From NCBI RefSeq assembly GCF_016862755.1, contig NZ_BONO01000018.1, positions 1-64,000 on the forward strand: DNA of 64,000 bases, in the 5' to 3' direction. The DNA is from Cellulomonas pakistanensis. Its GTDB lineage: Bacteria; Actinomycetota; Actinomycetes; Actinomycetales; Cellulomonadaceae. Of the stretch, positions 21,834 to 38,212 are shown piece after piece (the first letter of the stretch is position 1; each line of letters starts with the position of its first letter). Below the pieces are notes generated by a model. It saw only the letters and a program-made list of their open reading frames with translations. It made no database searches and was not told the origin of the DNA. The position numbers and the translations under genes were made by a program.

Positions 21834-22025
21834 ATGGGGCGCGGCCGTCAGAAGGCTAAGCAGACGAAGGTGGCTCGGGAGCTGAAGTACTTCAGCCCGG
21901 ACACCAACTACCGGGCGCTGGAGCAGGAGCTCACCGGCCACCGGAACGACCTCGTCACCGACAGCCGACAGGACTCCGACGACGAGGGTGACGACTACCC
22001 CCCTCGCTGGGCGGACGAGCGCTGA
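21834..22025 (+). CDS. DUF3073 small protein
   Basis: The 63-residue protein (MGRGRQKAKQTKVARELKYF, then an Asp-rich C terminus and PPRWADE) is the conserved actinobacterial DUF3073 family. It has a basic N terminus and an acidic C terminus and no membrane segment. The function is unknown. AGAGGGGG lies upstream of the ATG. Confidence 0.9.
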   Translation: MGRGRQKAKQTKVARELKYFSPDTNYRALEQELTGHRNDLVTDSRQDSDDEGDDYPPRWADER

Positions 22026-31887: not shown

Positions 31888-32718
31888 GTGACCCGACGCT
31901 CCCCCCGGACCCTCGCGGCCGCCGTCGCGCTCGGGGCGCTGCTCGCCGGGTGCACCGCGGGCGGGGACAGCGGCCCGGCACCGGCCCCCGCGACGGATGC
32001 GGCGACGGACGAGGCGACGGCCGGCCCGGAGCCCGCCGCCGCCTCTGCCGTCCGAGCCGACGGGACCCCCGTGGCGTCCGGTGGCGTGACCCTGTCCGTG
32101 CTCGCCCCCGCGGGTCCCGCCGCGAGCGCGCCGGCCGAGGACGACGCCGTCCTGCTGACCGTCGCGGTGCCCGCCGAGGACTCCGGGCCGGCGCTCGTCA
32201 CCGTGGCGACGCTGGCCGCGCCGGAGGGCGGGTCGGTCGAGGTGCTGGACGACCTGTCCGCCCTGGTCCGCGACGCCGGCGGTGCGGTGCTCGGCGGGCT
32301 GACGGCGCCGCTGCTGGACGACGCCGCGGGGCGCACCGTGCGCGTCCGCACCGCGGACGACGGCACCGTGACCTGGCTCGTCGAGGGCGCGGAGGGGTCG
32401 GGCGCCTCGGGCGGGTCGGTCACCGCGACGTTCGCCGCGACCGCCGTGCTGTCCGCCACCTGGCGGGACCTGGCCGACGAGGGCGGGCGCTCGCTGGCCG
32501 TCGAGCCGGCGGCGTGGGCGCGGCGGGGCAGCCTCGCGGCCGAGGAGGCGGTGCGGGCGGCACTGGTCGCGGCGGAGCCGGAGGCGGACGGGCAGAACGT
32601 GCGGGACCAGCTCACCTGCCACCTGATCGGCGCCCCCGACAAGGCGACGTGGAACCTGGAGCCGTGGCGGCCGGACGTCGGGCTGCTGGAGACGATCGCG
32701 GCGCTCTGCAACCCGTGA
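31888..32718 (+). CDS. DUF2599-type lipoprotein
   Basis: The 276-residue product has a lipoprotein signal peptide with lipobox LLAGC (C22), a Pro/Ala/Thr-rich linker, a beta-rich middle and a C-terminal segment DQLTCHLIGAPDKATWNLEP, then WRPD and CNP at the end. That C-terminal pattern is the DUF2599 signature. It is an outer-face membrane-anchored protein of unknown role. CACAAT 6 nt before the GTG is a possible -10 of a leaderless transcript. Confidence 0.75.
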   Translation: MTRRSPRTLAAAVALGALLAGCTAGGDSGPAPAPATDAATDEATAGPEPAAASAVRADGTPVASGGVTLSVLAPAGPAASAPAEDDAVLLTVAVPAEDSGPALVTVATLAAPEGGSVEVLDDLSALVRDAGGAVLGGLTAPLLDDAAGRTVRVRTADDGTVTWLVEGAEGSGASGGSVTATFAATAVLSATWRDLADEGGRSLAVEPAAWARRGSLAAEEAVRAALVAAEPEADGQNVRDQLTCHLIGAPDKATWNLEPWRPDVGLLETIAALCNP

Positions 32719-32800
32719 GGCGTTCGCCCGCCGCCGCGGCGGGCGACGACGATGCGCGCGCCCGCATGCCGGACGCCGCGTCCCGGCGCGTGGTCGGTTG

Positions 32801-32810
32801 TTGCTACAGT
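32801..32810 (+). promoter_or_regulatory. Extended -10 before the Cys-rich leader ORF
   Basis: TTGCTACAGT contains TGC-TACAGT, an extended -10 pattern, ending 10 nt before the leader ATG. No good -35 is visible. Confidence 0.45.
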
Positions 32811-32820
32811 CATCGGCATC

Positions 32821-32898
32821 ATGCGCCACACGACCCCCGCCGCACGCACCCGCGCCTGTCGACCCGCGTCGACCGCCGCGTGCTGTTGTCGTCGCTGA
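32821..32898 (+). CDS. Cys-rich leader peptide (attenuator uORF)
   Basis: ATG 32821 opens a 25-codon frame ending in ...STAACCCRR-stop, with a further Cys at residue 13. Tandem Cys codons just before the stop are the mark of cysteine-responsive attenuator uORFs described in mycobacteria and relatives, where translation through the Cys run reports cysteine supply. Transcription probably begins a few nucleotides upstream. A 261-nt leader then runs to the ABC substrate-binding protein at 33160, which would be the controlled operon. Its length is below usual gene-calling limits. Confidence 0.7.
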   Translation: MRHTTPAARTRACRPASTAACCCRR

Positions 32899-33001
32899 GC
32901 GCCCCGCGTCCCTGACGCCCGCGCGTCCCTGACGCGCCGCGGCCCGCGCCCCCGAACGCCGCCGCCACCGCGCCGACCCGCGCCCCCGCGCCCCGGGAAT
33001 T

Positions 33002-33028
33002 CCCGACCCCACGGTCGGGTTCCACCGT
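33002..33028 (+). promoter_or_regulatory. Possible attenuator hairpins in the ABC operon leader
   Basis: CCCGACC (33002-33008) pairs with GGTCGGG (33013-33019). ACGGT (33011-33015) can instead pair with ACCGT (33024-33028). The two hairpins overlap and exclude each other, between the Cys-rich uORF and the first operon gene. The stems are short, so this is only a candidate switch. Confidence 0.35.
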
Positions 33029-33159
33029 CGGGGGACGCGCGAGCCCGCGAGCACCGCCCCGGCAGCCCGCCCCGGCAGCCCGCCCCGGGCGGCGCCGCAC
33101 CGAGCCCCACCCCCACCGCGCCGCACCCGCCGCGCGGCCCTCCTGGAAGGACACCACCC

Positions 33160-34686
33160 GTGCGCACCCGTCGCTCCCGCCGCGCCCCGCTCGGCGCCGC
33201 CCTGGCCGTCACCGCCGCCCTGGCGCTGGCCGCCTGCGGCACGGGCTCCGGCTCCGGCGACGACTCCGCCGCCCCGGGCTCGCCCGACGCCTCGGCCGAG
33301 ATCGTCATCGGCTCCACCAACGAGCCCACCGGGCTCGTCCGCAACGTCGGCGGCTCGTCCGGCGTCTCGCAGACCATGACCCGCAACGTCTACGAGGGCC
33401 TCACCTCGGTGGACGTCGACGGCGAGGTCGTCCCGACGCTGGCCGAGTCCTGGGACGTGTCCGAGGACGGCCTGACGTACACGTTCCACCTGCAGCCGGA
33501 CGTGACCTTCCACGACGGCACCCCGCTGACCGCGGACGACGTGGTGTGGAGCATCTCCGAGGCGATCGGCCCGGAGTCGAAGTCCGCCCGCAAGAGCGAC
33601 CTGCTCGTCATCCAGCAGGCCACCGCGGTCGACGACGCCACCGTGCAGCTCGACCTGTCCCGCCCGTCGCAGGGCCTGACGTTCTACCTCGCCTCCGTGA
33701 CGATCGTGCGGGACGGCGACACCGAGCTCACCAGCGACAACGGCACCGGCCCCTACCGGTTCGTCGAGTGGGTGCAGGGCGACCACCTGACCATCGAGCA
33801 GTACGACGGCTACTGGGGCGAGCCCGCCCAGAACGCCGGCGTGACGTTCCGGTTCTTCCAGGACACGACCGCGCTGAACAACGCGCTGCTCACCGGCGAC
33901 CTCGACCTGGTCATCGCCGAGGACTCCCCCGACCAGCTCGTGCAGTTCGAGGACAACCCCGACTTCACGATCACCGAGGGCACCTCGACCACCAAGCAGA
34001 TCTGGGCGTTCAACGACCGCGAGGCGCCGTTCAGCGACGTCCGCGTCCGCCAGGCGCTCTACAAGGCGATCGACCGCGAGGCGATCCTGTCGGCGGTGTG
34101 GGACGGCTACGGCCAGGTCATCGGCTCGATGGTCCCGCCGACCGACCCGTGGTTCGTCGACCAGGCCGATGTGCACGCCTACGACCCGGACGCCGCCGAG
34201 GCACTCCTGGCCGAGGCCGGCGTGACCGACCTGTCGATCTCCGTGGACTACATCCCGGACGGCACCACCGAGGCGATCCTCGCGCTGCTGACGAAGAACC
34301 TCGCCGACGTGGGCGTCACGCTGACCCCGAACCCGATCGACGACGCCACCTGGTACCAGAAGGTCTACACGGACCACGACTTCCAGACGACGCTCATGGG
34401 GCACGTGAACCCGCGCGACGTCCTCTGGTACGCGAACCCCGACTTCTACTGGGGCTACGACAACCCGCAGGTCCAGGAGTGGGTCACGGCGGCCGACCAG
34501 GCCCCGACCGCCGAGGAGCAGGTCGAGCTGCTGACGCAGGTCAACGAGACGATCGGCGAGGAGGCGGCGTCCGCCTGGCTGTACCTGGACCCGCAGATCC
34601 GCGTCGCCCGCTCCGACGTGACCGGCTTCCCCGTCGACCAGGTGACCGAGTCCTTCTACGTCGCCGACATCGTCCGGGAGTCCTGA
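33160..34686 (+). CDS. Peptide ABC transporter substrate-binding lipoprotein
   Basis: The 508-residue family-5 solute-binding protein (Opp/Dpp/Nik type) has a lipobox LALAAC (C26). Family motifs are SWDVSEDGLTYTFHLQPDVT, FHDGTPLTADDVVWS, NGTGPYRFVEW and FSDVRVRQALYKAIDREAIL. It captures the ligand outside the membrane for the permeases and ATPases encoded next. The ligand is unknown; the upstream Cys-rich uORF suggests a sulfur-containing peptide or thiol compound. GGAAGGA precedes the GTG start. Confidence 0.92.
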   Translation: MRTRRSRRAPLGAALAVTAALALAACGTGSGSGDDSAAPGSPDASAEIVIGSTNEPTGLVRNVGGSSGVSQTMTRNVYEGLTSVDVDGEVVPTLAESWDVSEDGLTYTFHLQPDVTFHDGTPLTADDVVWSISEAIGPESKSARKSDLLVIQQATAVDDATVQLDLSRPSQGLTFYLASVTIVRDGDTELTSDNGTGPYRFVEWVQGDHLTIEQYDGYWGEPAQNAGVTFRFFQDTTALNNALLTGDLDLVIAEDSPDQLVQFEDNPDFTITEGTSTTKQIWAFNDREAPFSDVRVRQALYKAIDREAILSAVWDGYGQVIGSMVPPTDPWFVDQADVHAYDPDAAEALLAEAGVTDLSISVDYIPDGTTEAILALLTKNLADVGVTLTPNPIDDATWYQKVYTDHDFQTTLMGHVNPRDVLWYANPDFYWGYDNPQVQEWVTAADQAPTAEEQVELLTQVNETIGEEAASAWLYLDPQIRVARSDVTGFPVDQVTESFYVADIVRES

Positions 34687-34690
34687 CACC

Positions 34691-35647
34691 GTGCGCGCGG
34701 CACTGCTGCGGATCGGCGCCCTGCTGATCTCCCTCGTCCTGGCGAGCGTCGTCGTGTTCGTCGTCCTCCGGCTGCTGCCGGGCGACGCCGCGGGCGCGAC
34801 CCTCGGCGTGGGCACCACCACGGACCAGCTCGACCAGCTCCGCTCCGAGCTCGGGACCGACCAGCCGGTGGTGACGCAGTACGTGCAGTGGCTCGGCCAG
34901 GTCGTCCGCGGGGACCTCGGCACGTCCTTCGTGTCGAGGCTCGCCGTGGCCGACCTCATCACCCAGAAGCTGCCCATCACGGTGCCGCTCAGCCTGTCCG
35001 CGTTCGTCCTGGCCGTGCTCGTGTCGGTGCCCCTCGGCGTGATCGCCGCGGTGCACCGGCGCGGGCCGGTCGGGGTCGCGGTGTCGGCGGTGTCCCAGCT
35101 CGGCGTCGCGGTGCCGGTGTTCTGGGTGGGCGTGCTGCTGGTGCTCGTCCTCGCCCTGCAGGCGCGCTGGCTGCCGGCCGGCGGGTTCCCCCGCACCGGC
35201 TGGGACGACCCGGCGGCCGCGGTCCGGTCGCTGGTGCTGCCGGTCGTCACCGTGGCGATCGCGATGTCGGCGGTCATGGTCCGATACGTGCGGTCCGCGA
35301 CCCTCGACGTGCTGGACCAGGACTACCTGCGCACCGCCCGGTCCCTCGGCTACGGCCGCTGGCACGCGCTGGCCCGGCACGGCCTGCGCAACGCGGCGGT
35401 GCCCGTCGTGTCGATCCTCGGCATCGAGCTGGCGACCTCGCTGCTCGGCGCCGTGGTGATCGAGAACGTGTTCGCGCTGCCCGGGCTGGGCACGCTGCTG
35501 CTCGACTCGGTGACCTCCCGCGACCTGCCGGTCGTGCAGGCGCTCGTCCTCGGGCTCACGGCGGTCGTGCTGATCATGAACGCGCTGGTCGACCTCGGGC
35601 AGCGCGCGATCGACCCGCGGCTGCGAGCGAAGGAGGTCGCGGCGTGA
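34691..35647 (+). CDS. ABC transporter permease, DppB type
   Basis: The 318-residue inner-membrane permease has about six helices, the N-terminal LRLLPGDAAG and the coupling loop DYLRTARSLGYGRWHALARH followed by GLRNAAVP. It begins 4 nt after the substrate-binding gene and overlaps the next permease by GTGA. Confidence 0.93.
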   Translation: MRAALLRIGALLISLVLASVVVFVVLRLLPGDAAGATLGVGTTTDQLDQLRSELGTDQPVVTQYVQWLGQVVRGDLGTSFVSRLAVADLITQKLPITVPLSLSAFVLAVLVSVPLGVIAAVHRRGPVGVAVSAVSQLGVAVPVFWVGVLLVLVLALQARWLPAGGFPRTGWDDPAAAVRSLVLPVVTVAIAMSAVMVRYVRSATLDVLDQDYLRTARSLGYGRWHALARHGLRNAAVPVVSILGIELATSLLGAVVIENVFALPGLGTLLLDSVTSRDLPVVQALVLGLTAVVLIMNALVDLGQRAIDPRLRAKEVAA

Positions 35648-36564
35648 CCGGCGAGCTGACCACCACGACCCCCGTGGCGCGGGGCGTCGACGCGCCCGCG
35701 GCCGCCCCGGGGACGCCGGGCGGGTCCGGGGGCCGGGCCCGCGGCGCCCGGCGGCTGCCGCCGTCGCTCGTCGTCGGCGCCGTCCTGGTCGGCCTGGTCG
35801 CCGTCGTCGGCCTCGTGTCCCTGGTCTGGACCCCCTACGCGCTCGACGACACCGGCACCGGCGAGCGGCTCGCCGGCCCGAGCGCGGCGCACTGGGGCGG
35901 CACCGACCGCCTCGGCCGCGACCTGCTGAGCCAGCTGATGACCGGCGCGGGCAACGCGCTGGTCGTCGCCGCCGCGTCCATGCTGGTCGCCGGCGTGCTC
36001 GGCGTCGCGGTCGGCGTGCTGGCCGGCGCCACCCGGCGCTGGGTCGACGTCACGCTGCTGTCGGGCGTCGACCTGCTCATCGCCTTCCCCACGCTGCTGC
36101 TCGCGATGCTCATCGTGACGGTGCGCGGCGCCTCGCTGTCGTCGGCGATCTGGGCCATCGGCATCTCCGGGGCCGCCGTCATCGCCCGGGTCACCCGGGT
36201 CAACGTCGCGCGCGTGCTGCGCGAGGACTACGTCACCGCCGCGCACGCCGCGGGCACCGGCTGGTGGGGCGTCGTGCTGCGGCACGTCGTGCCGAACGTC
36301 TGGCCGACCCTGCTCGTGCAGCTCATGCTGCTCGGCGGCGGCGCCGTGCTCGCCGAGGCGTCGCTGTCCTACCTGGGCCTCGGCGCCCCGCCGCCCAACG
36401 CGTCCTGGGGCCGCCTGCTCCAGGAGGCGCAGTCGACGATGCTCGTGCAGCCGTGGGGCGCGATCCTGCCCGGCCTCGCGATCGTCGTGGCGGTGCTCGG
36501 CCTCAACCTGCTCGGCGACGGCATCCGCGAGCGCACCGATCCGAACCTGCGAGGTGACCGATGA
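35644..36564 (+). CDS. ABC transporter permease, DppC type
   Basis: The 306-residue second permease has HWGGTDRLGRDLLSQLMTGA after the first helix, and DYVTAAHAAGTGWWGVVLRH with VVPNVWPTLLVQ as the ATPase-coupling loop. It ends with LLGDGIRERTDPNLRG. The N terminus carries about 40 Pro/Gly/Ala-rich residues. Both ends overlap neighbouring genes by 4 nt. Confidence 0.93.
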   Translation: MTGELTTTTPVARGVDAPAAAPGTPGGSGGRARGARRLPPSLVVGAVLVGLVAVVGLVSLVWTPYALDDTGTGERLAGPSAAHWGGTDRLGRDLLSQLMTGAGNALVVAAASMLVAGVLGVAVGVLAGATRRWVDVTLLSGVDLLIAFPTLLLAMLIVTVRGASLSSAIWAIGISGAAVIARVTRVNVARVLREDYVTAAHAAGTGWWGVVLRHVVPNVWPTLLVQLMLLGGGAVLAEASLSYLGLGAPPPNASWGRLLQEAQSTMLVQPWGAILPGLAIVVAVLGLNLLGDGIRERTDPNLRGDR

Positions 36565-37424
36565 GCGCGCTGCTCGAGGTCCAGGACCTGACCGTCACCA
36601 CCTCGACCGGGCGCCGCATCCTCGACGGGGTGTCGTGGTCGCTCGACGCGGGCGGGCGGCTCGGCGTCGTCGGCGAGTCGGGCTCCGGCAAGTCGATGAC
36701 CGCCCTGGCCGTGCTGGGGCTGCTCCCCGACGGGATGCGGGCCACCGGCCGGGTCCTGCTGGACGGCGAGGACCTGCTCGCGCTGCCGCCGCGGCGGCTC
36801 GCGCGGGTCCGGGGCGGCCAGGTCGCGATGGTGTTCCAGGAGCCGCTCACCGCGCTCGACCCGCTCATGACCGTCGGGCGGCAGATCACCGGCCCGCTGC
36901 GCCTGCACCGCGGCCTGCGCGGCGCTGCGGCCCGCGAGGAGGCCGCCCGGCTGGCGCGGCTCGTGCACCTCGACGACACCGAGCGGATCCTCGGCTCCTA
37001 CCCGTGGCAGCTGTCCGGCGGGCAGCGGCAGCGCGTCGCCCTGGCGATGGCGCTGGCCTGCGAGCCGCGGGTGCTGCTGGCCGACGAGCCCACCACCGCG
37101 CTCGACGTCACCGTGCAGGCCGAGGTGCTCGACCTGCTCGACCACCTCGTGGACCGGACCGGCGTCGCGCTGGTGCTCGTCACGCACGACCTGCCCGTGG
37201 TCGCCCGGGTGGCGCGGGACCTGGTCGTCATGCGCGACGGCCGCGTCGTCGAGCACACCTCGGTCGCCGCGGCGCTGGCCGGGGGCGAGGCGGCGTACAC
37301 GCGGGAGCTCGTCGGGGCGGCGCGAGCCGTGACCGGGCTGCCGGGCGGCGGTCCCGCGGCCGGCGCTGCCGGGGTCGCGGCGGCGGCCGCGCGCCGGCCC
37401 GCGCCCGAGGAGGAGACCCGATGA
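36561..37424 (+). CDS. ABC transporter ATPase, DppD type
   Basis: The 287-residue ATPase has Walker A GESGSGKS, the signature LSGGQRQRVALAMAL, Walker [17 protein letters not shown] and the switch His in LVTHDLPVV. The C-terminal oligopeptide-transporter extension is shortened and Ala-rich, without the Cys motif of some family members. It overlaps dppC- and dppF-like genes by ATGA at each end. Confidence 0.93.
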   Translation: MSALLEVQDLTVTTSTGRRILDGVSWSLDAGGRLGVVGESGSGKSMTALAVLGLLPDGMRATGRVLLDGEDLLALPPRRLARVRGGQVAMVFQEPLTALDPLMTVGRQITGPLRLHRGLRGAAAREEAARLARLVHLDDTERILGSYPWQLSGGQRQRVALAMALACEPRVLLADEPTTALDVTVQAEVLDLLDHLVDRTGVALVLVTHDLPVVARVARDLVVMRDGRVVEHTSVAAALAGGEAAYTRELVGAARAVTGLPGGGPAAGAAGVAAAAARRPAPEEETR

Positions 37425-38212
37425 CCGTCCCCACCCCCGCTCCGGCCCCCGCGTCCGCCGCCCCCGTCCTCGAGGCCGTCGACGTGGTGCGCACCTTCGG
37501 CGCGACCCGGGCGCTCGACGGCGTCTCGGTGCGGGTCGAGGCCGGCCGCAGCATCGGGATCGTCGGCGAGTCCGGCTCCGGCAAGTCGACCCTGCTGCGC
37601 CAGCTGCTCGCGCTCGACACCCCCACCTCCGGCGAGGTCCGGTACCGCGGCGAGCCCGTGACGCGGCGGGACCGCGGCCTGCTGCGCCGGCTGCGCGCCG
37701 ACGTCCAGCCGGTGTTCCAGGACCCGCGCTCGTCGCTCGACCCGCGGATGCGGGTGGGCGCCGTGGTCGCCGAGCCGCTGCGCTCGCTGAAGGTCCCGGG
37801 CGACCACCGCGCCCGGGTGGCCGAGGTGCTGGCGTCGGTCGGCCTCGACCCCGACACTGCCGCGCGGTACCCGGCGCAGTTCTCCGGCGGGCAGCGGCAG
37901 CGCATCGCGATCGCCCGGGCGCTCGCGCCGCGGCCGTCGGTGCTGGTCGCCGACGAGCCGGTGTCCGCGCTCGACGTGTCCGTCCGCGGCCAGGTGGTCG
38001 ACCTGCTGCAGCGGCTCGCCGCCGAGCACGGGCTGACGCTCGTGCTGGTGTCGCACGACATCGCGATCGTCGGGCGGCTGTGCGAGCGGACCGTGGTGCT
38101 GCACCACGGCCGGGTCGTCGAGGAGGGCCCGACGGGCGCGCTGCTGGCGGACCCGCAGGAGGCGTACACGCGGCGCCTGCTCGCGGCGGTGCCGCAGCTC
38201 CCGGGGGCCTGA
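37421..38212 (+). CDS. ABC transporter ATPase, DppF type
   Basis: The 263-residue second ATPase has [70 protein letters not shown] and LVSHDIAIV. It closes the five-gene operon. A large palindromic repeat follows 24 nt later. Confidence 0.93.
   Translation: MTVPTPAPAPASAAPVLEAVDVVRTFGATRALDGVSVRVEAGRSIGIVGESGSGKSTLLRQLLALDTPTSGEVRYRGEPVTRRDRGLLRRLRADVQPVFQDPRSSLDPRMRVGAVVAEPLRSLKVPGDHRARVAEVLASVGLDPDTAARYPAQFSGGQRQRIAIARALAPRPSVLVADEPVSALDVSVRGQVVDLLQRLAAEHGLTLVLVSHDIAIVGRLCERTVVLHHGRVVEEGPTGALLADPQEAYTRRLLAAVPQLPGA

Follow-up and report, generated by a model that had tools for sequence, protein, structure and literature searches.

Peptide/nickel-type ABC importers belong to the transporters whose ligands are hard to predict. 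In Cellulomonas pakistanensis, a five-gene operon of this type is preceded by a very short reading frame that ends in Cys codons, which raises the question whether the short frame controls the importer and, if so, what the control tells about the imported compound. The operon lies in the window, by which we mean the whole stretch of 64,000 nucleotides that was analysed (contig 18 of the 4.0 Mb genome G000). The regulation of this importer matters because the bacterium appears unable to use sulfate. In our best reading the leader is a cysteine attenuator of a kind known from actinobacteria, placed before an unusual target. That it acts as a cysteine attenuator on an importer of a sulfur compound, whatever the expression platform, we consider probable.

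The short reading frame and the loci that carry it

The initial annotation had described a 25-codon ORF, its last codons reading Cys-Cys-Cys-Arg-Arg, behind the motif TGC-TACAGT, with the stop codon 261 nt before the GTG start (33160) of the gene for the substrate-binding protein (SBP). Sequence, coordinates and distance were all confirmed (Table 1). The Cys codons of the ORF are one TGT and, at the 3' end, TGC TGT TGT followed by the two Arg codons. The hexamer TACAGT occupies positions 32805–32810 and the ATG follows 10 nt downstream, with no Shine-Dalgarno sequence in between. From the spacing, transcription of the leader is predicted to start at approx. 32817–32821, which would imply a 5' UTR of 0–4 nt, and the sequence fits a near-leaderless start. 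Of the 28 leaders, 22 have a hexamer resembling the -10 element, with A at position 2 and T at position 6, located 5–11 nt 5' of their start codon. A strict sigma-70 scan found no -35/-10 pair at the leader, and the basis of the predicted leader promoter is therefore the extended -10 motif with the conservation of this motif. An ATG further 5', at 32752, opens the same frame as well (48 aa); conservation marks 32821 as the start. Directly 5' of the leader, on the same strand, lies a gene for a DUF2599 lipoprotein (31888–32718), and a member of this family is also found upstream in the loci L042, L043 and L052.

Table 1. Positions of the leader, the gap and the ABC operon in the window.
Feature	Position	Strand	Basis
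Extended -10 TGC-TACAGT, predicted leader promoter	32802–32810	+	sequence, conservation in close Cellulomonas loci
Cys leader ORF, MRHTTPAARTRACRPASTAACCCRR, ATG + 24 codons + TGA (25 codons)	32821–32898	+	
Leader-to-SBP gap, 261 nt, 54% C, 31% G, 5% T; proposed Rho-loading/expression-platform region	32899–33159	+	composition
Two hairpins, GCGTC-CCT-GACGC and GCGCGTC-CCT-GACGCGC, with alternative pairing possible	32906–32937	+	
SBP lipoprotein, SBP_bac_5, 508 aa, GTG start, GGAAGGA Shine-Dalgarno	33160–34686	+	domain, sequence
Permease 1, BPD_transp_1	34691–35647	+	domain
Permease 2, BPD_transp_1	35644–36564	+	domain
ATP-binding protein 1, ABC_tran	36561–37424	+	domain
ATP-binding protein 2, ABC_tran	37421–38212	+	domain

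The five ABC genes are contiguous with intergenic spacing of at most 4 bases, and the first of them codes for the SBP, a member of family 5 (peptide/nickel). A draw of 150 genomes of the same family contained 17 loci with an SBP of at least 58% identity, one being the window and one (L021) having 213 nt of upstream sequence. In each of the other 15 loci, whose upstream sequence was long enough, a short ORF with neighbouring Cys codons close to the stop lay 188–395 nt 5' of the SBP match. The Cys runs had diverged (CCCR, CCRCL, CCR, CCCRCSR, CCCCCW, CCCCCC, CCCSC, CCRCC). As the leader peptides differ, the kept feature is the Cys run together with the start context (CATC-ATG or similar), not a protein.

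Among 80 named loci, 20 had a leader with a Cys run, including those of Scrofimicrobium, Actinopolymorpha and five Micromonosporaceae. Leader and importer occur in Cellulomonadaceae, Actinomycetaceae, Micromonosporaceae and Actinopolymorpha. In a phylogeny of 101 SBPs, made without L021 and without eight named loci that duplicated genomes of the 150-genome draw, the 28 rows with a leader were confined to two clades of 30 and 6 rows. A clade of 53 rows (Microbacterium, Streptomyces, Pseudomonadota) and an outgroup of 12 rows were judged to have no leader. Within the 30-row clade four rows had short upstream sequence (L039, L041, L045, L053) and four were without a Cys-run leader. C. telluris (L046) has a one-Cys version that ends SCRG, as read by eye, and no Cys leader was found upstream in L056, L058 and L059 of the same clade. 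The latter three loci (Arcanobacterium, Actinomycetaceae and Brachybacterium) have kept the transporter, with CysD and the Cys leader both missing; perhaps the transporter is expressed constitutively there. Loci with too little upstream sequence were dropped (L021, L039, L041, L045, L053, L062, L068). The close named relatives of the SBP are from Cellulomonas (C. triticagri 93% and C. hominis 94% identity, by best segment), and C. triticagri L040 is the sister of the window SBP on the tree.

Two groups were considered as leader carriers and rejected since the conserved leader was absent, namely the distant SBPs of approx. 40% identity (L026–L038) and the relatives from Microbacterium, Streptomyces and Pseudomonadota. 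Candidates with CC in L026, L027, L030, L031 and L033, and a GTG ORF in L083, were judged to be chance occurrences.

The gap between the leader and the binding protein gene

We propose that the leader would act in cis as a cysteine attenuator, being a short, probably near-leaderless ORF with terminal Cys codons that are mostly the rare TGT. When Cys-tRNA is scarce, a ribosome translating the leader would stall at these codons. When cysteine is ample, the ribosome would exit at the TGA and leave the C-rich, G-poor gap of 261 nt exposed, and Rho would end transcription. Under cysteine shortage the stalled ribosome would block this termination and the five-gene ABC operon would be expressed.

RNA that is rich in C and poor in G is a known signature of Rho loading. 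The excess of C over G (C minus G) amounts to 0.24 for the gap of the window; over the 28 leader gaps it averages 0.17, the lowest value being 0.04. In 82 control intergenic gaps, which derive from crude gene calls, the mean was -0.01 (sd 0.07) and none reached 0.14. Gap lengths across the 28 leaders range from 122 to 395 nt. We favour Rho because the gap is C-rich and G-poor and because such lengths suit a length-tolerant step, and we give Rho-dependent termination as the platform about an even chance.

The cysteine attenuator could also act on translation, with the stalled ribosome freeing the SBP start region from base-pairing, as is reported for mycobacterial polycysteine sORFs (PMC13236596). 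Strong folds of the start region in some Oerskovia-/Jonesia-type loci (L012, L013, L014 and L022, z-scores -3.6 to -4.6) speak for this platform. So does the pairing seen in four Micromonosporaceae (L064, L065, L067, L072), in which the leader stretch GTTGTTGAC, comprising Cys codons and the stop, is complementary enough to a GTCATCAAC-like element further 3' for the two to pair; the platform may thus differ between clades. The start region of the window, however, has a z-score of 0.47, which is not unusual, and the mean over the 28 sequences is -1.0, while the spread of gap lengths better suits a length-tolerant mechanism. We regard a translational platform as possible but doubtful, and Rho-dependent termination as the preferred one.

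An intrinsic terminator is improbable as the platform. No T-run terminator was found in 32899–33250, and with it no trp-type arrangement of terminator and antiterminator. A conserved hairpin after the leader was not found in the 28 sequences (mean z-score -0.77), and an Rfam search of 32600–33400 gave 0 matches at E up to 1. The two hairpins at 32906–32937 are kept in four close Cellulomonas sequences, including the window, and altered in L040; they are weakly supported because the z-score of the region is -0.61.

Sulfur supply of the carriers and the cargo of the transporter

Further Cys leaders were found in the same genomes. The gene cysK (TIGR01136 above cut-off) was present in 8 of 8 genomes tested, and a Cys leader preceded it in every one, the genome of the window included. 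Six of these leaders contain CC, and two, among them that of the window genome, end CRCR. A hairpin opens at the TAG stop of the cysK leader in all eight, with 9–10 of the first 10 arm positions complementary, paired changes between genomes (GCGCTG/CAGCGC, GCATTG/CAATGC, GCGTTG/CAACGC) and fold z-scores from -1.4 to -3.8. A leader candidate at a second cysK-like copy in L198 was judged to be chance.

The window genome has yet another leader, of 35 codons with CRCCRR, which was found as a weak DNA match to the region of the present leader. It stands before an SsuB/SsuA-type operon with genes for an ABC ATPase and an SsuA-like protein. In NCBIfam the ATPase scores best against the aliphatic-sulfonate model, though with 220.6 bits it stays under the cut-off (395); a fragment of the second protein reaches 89.5 bits with the SsuA family model, where 163.5 would be needed. 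The substrate of this operon is a puzzle because the window genome is without detectable sulfite reductase. The cysK and SsuB/SsuA-type leaders are both located on contig 6 of the window genome (loci L191 and L002). At the CysD loci L179–L182 no clear Cys leader was found within 1500 nt, apart from one doubtful ORF at -546 in L182; this search tests little because genes for APS reductase and sulfite reductase precede CysD in the operon. The conservation across genera, the rare codon and the counterparts at cysK and the SsuBA-type operon make induction by cysteine shortage, which the initial annotation had suggested for the transporter, the best reading of the leader.

In the window genome we detected no CysD, APS reductase, sulfite-reductase (NIR_SIR) domain or TIGR00971 sulfate-binding protein. 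Within the window's genus (g1), as sampled in the 150-genome draw, CysD and APS reductase were missing in 3 of 3 transporter carriers and both present in 14 of 14 non-carriers. The genus g20 gave the same picture, with both missing in 2 of 2 carriers and both present in 4 of 4 non-carriers. Every sampled genome of these two genera that had lost sulfate reduction had the transporter, a pattern that may reflect only a few events. Among 32 genomes APS reductase was absent in the same six as CysD (G000, G071, G102, G019, G040, G015) and present in 26, with all detections scoring under the family cut-off. Among 12 genomes searched for NIR_SIR, none was found in G000, G071 and G015; G102, G019 and G040 had lower-scoring copies in long frames, which we take for probable nitrite reductase. 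Sulfate assimilation has apparently been lost in genomes of the C. hominis/denverensis/triticagri type (G000, G071, G102, G150–G154) and in G019 and G040 of g20.

Fifteen genomes of further carriers, L046 not among them, were checked for CysD. It was missing over the cut-off in five Cellulomonas-type and four Actinomycetaceae/Brachybacterium carriers, where missing genes could reflect genome completeness, and present in six carriers from Micromonosporaceae and Actinopolymorpha. Over the whole family the association was weak (CysD missing in 6 of 17 carriers vs 27 of 133 others), and the transporter is therefore not simply a marker of sulfate loss.

What the SBP binds was approached through its closest relatives. 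The label 'peptide' is a guess from the family, because the SBP fails the curated NCBIfam cut-offs for glutathione, dipeptide and nickel (GsiB 137.8 of 594, DppA 114.9 of 1005 and NikA 140.6 of 393 bits). Its best NCBIfam matches were NikA, GsiB and Opp5A, all far under cut-off. The nearest entries in a sequence-profile search of the PDB were AgaA (first), CtaP, AapF and YliB (fourth). With an AlphaFold2 model of the SBP (pLDDT 86.8), Foldseek returned CtaP first and YliB second, the scores of CtaP, YliB, AapF and DppA being close together. YliB, which we take to be GsiB, the glutathione-binding protein of E. coli, is not an equivalog of the SBP, as the score of 137.8 bits against the GsiB cut-off of 594 indicates. 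CtaP (Lmo0135) of Listeria monocytogenes is an Opp-type SBP linked to the uptake of cysteine with high affinity; a predicted SAM riboswitch precedes its gene (PMC10269559). It is the best structure match in the PDB, but with 25% identity and a different regulatory RNA the likeness is one of fold only. The resemblance of the modelled fold to CtaP and YliB does not fix the ligand; it agrees with the proposed regulation.

The leader might sense cysteine while the transporter imports general peptides or a metal chelate, so that cysteine would only signal the amino-acid supply. The breadth of SBP family 5 and the low scores against NikA, GsiB and Opp5A leave room for such a cargo, and most relatives adjoin DUF1684 (PF07920) and most are without the leader. 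DUF1684 adjoins the operon upstream or downstream in many relatives (L060, L063, L064, L065, L067, L072 and further Microbacterium, Streptomyces and alphaproteobacterial loci), and none was seen beside the operon in the Cellulomonas loci; as a clue to the ligand it was dropped. Carriers without sulfate assimilation in Cellulomonas and g20, and CtaP and YliB as the nearest structural neighbours, argue against a cargo free of sulfur, which we consider unlikely. The sulfur-containing ligand of the initial annotation gains support from the closest structures and from the fact that carriers in the window's genus have lost sulfate assimilation. As to the exact ligand, we infer that the transporter would import a reduced-sulfur compound, which may be cystine, a di- or tripeptide containing cysteine, or glutathione, into a host unable to reduce sulfate.

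Codon usage, chance expectation and known Cys leaders

The Cys codons of the 28 leaders are TGT in 82 cases and TGC in 19 (82/101 TGT), and TGT is the majority Cys codon in each of them; the leaders are related, so these counts are not independent. TGT is rare in predicted genes, with 4 of 69 Cys codons in positions 22001–52000 of the window and 18 of 148 in five close Cellulomonas loci. Judged from the sequences, rare TGT codons would suit a sensor that works by stalling, and a working peptide would gain nothing from them. The leader product could be a small Cys-rich protein that is itself active in metal or redox binding, as metals can be bound by Cys clusters and nickel importers are among the transporter family. 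Between groups, however, nothing but the Cys run close to the stop is shared, the TGT bias acts at the level of the codon and not of the protein, and comparable leaders stand before cysK, so that we hold such a function to be very improbable.

In the 64 kb, on either strand, the leader is the sole short ORF that has its ATG within 35 codons of the stop and CCC near the stop. When 1265 other 500-nt stretches of the window were scanned more loosely (ATG, 12–32 codons, CC near the stop), 4 matched, and 0 of 1265 did so once the -10-like hexamer was required as well. The scan criterion was fixed after the leaders had been seen; with it, 25 of the 28 real upstream regions passed for the ORF and 22 for ORF plus hexamer (those that failed have a GTG start or an imperfect -10), compared with 0.8% and 0.17% of dinucleotide shuffles of these regions. 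CCC alone is not rare, as TGYTGYTGY occurs at 745 sites in the window genome, and a DNA-pattern search for all Cys leaders genome-wide was too unspecific. A chance ORF without function, for which these common CCC-coding runs might speak, is ruled out by conservation, the shuffle rate being 0.8% per 500 nt against a leader at 15 of 15 other orthologues, and has a negligible probability.

PMC13236596 describes cysteine genes of M. smegmatis under translation attenuation, citing Canestrari 2020. The mycobacterial attenuators are leaderless polycysteine sORFs (Canestrari et al. 2020, as far as presented in PMC13236596, PMC9094748 and PMC4633059). Like these, the present leader is a short ORF with Cys codons near the stop, located 5' of an operon and kept between species, and by its sequence it is probably near-leaderless. 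Its Cys codons cluster near the stop, and it has been kept with the operon across species with four losses or decays. The mycobacterial targets presented in those sources are cysteine and sulfur genes, e.g. cysA2, whereas the target here is a five-gene importer of the peptide/nickel type; in the same genomes a leader precedes cysK, and a role of the transporter in sulfur supply would follow from our reading.

Cys leader peptides had been predicted earlier, reportedly by Seliverstov et al. in 2005. That year they were proposed for cys operons of Mycobacterium and P. acnes and for cbs of B. longum, with Rho-dependent termination suggested (PMC1262725). Shared with the present case are Cys runs near the stop, the absence of a terminator hairpin and the suggestion of Rho. 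The difference is that biosynthesis operons and no transporter are treated there, and that evidence from codon bias or gene loss is not given in the part available (PMC1262725). Our literature search, with most subscription papers outside its reach, found no account of a Cys leader before a peptide-type importer. New here are the absence of sulfate genes in the window genome and in the transporter carriers of its genus, the structure matches to CtaP and YliB, and the C-rich, G-poor gap.

For importers whose ligands are hard to predict, a conserved Cys leader in genomes that have also lost sulfate assimilation provides an independent and cheap prediction of the ligand class, which would apply to the whole importer subfamily. 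The named Cellulomonas species are predicted not to grow on sulfate, and cysteine attenuation would be extended to transporter operons outside mycobacteria. Tentatively, and with somewhat less than even confidence, we suggest that actinobacteria of the Cellulomonas type in which the entire pathway of sulfate reduction has been lost depend on an Opp-type importer induced by cysteine shortage, a new functional group of family 5 SBPs, as a main sulfur route. The leaders with rare TGT codons before this operon, cysK and the SsuBA-type operon would then form a regulon that senses Cys-tRNA, with a C-rich Rho-loading gap at the operon described here.
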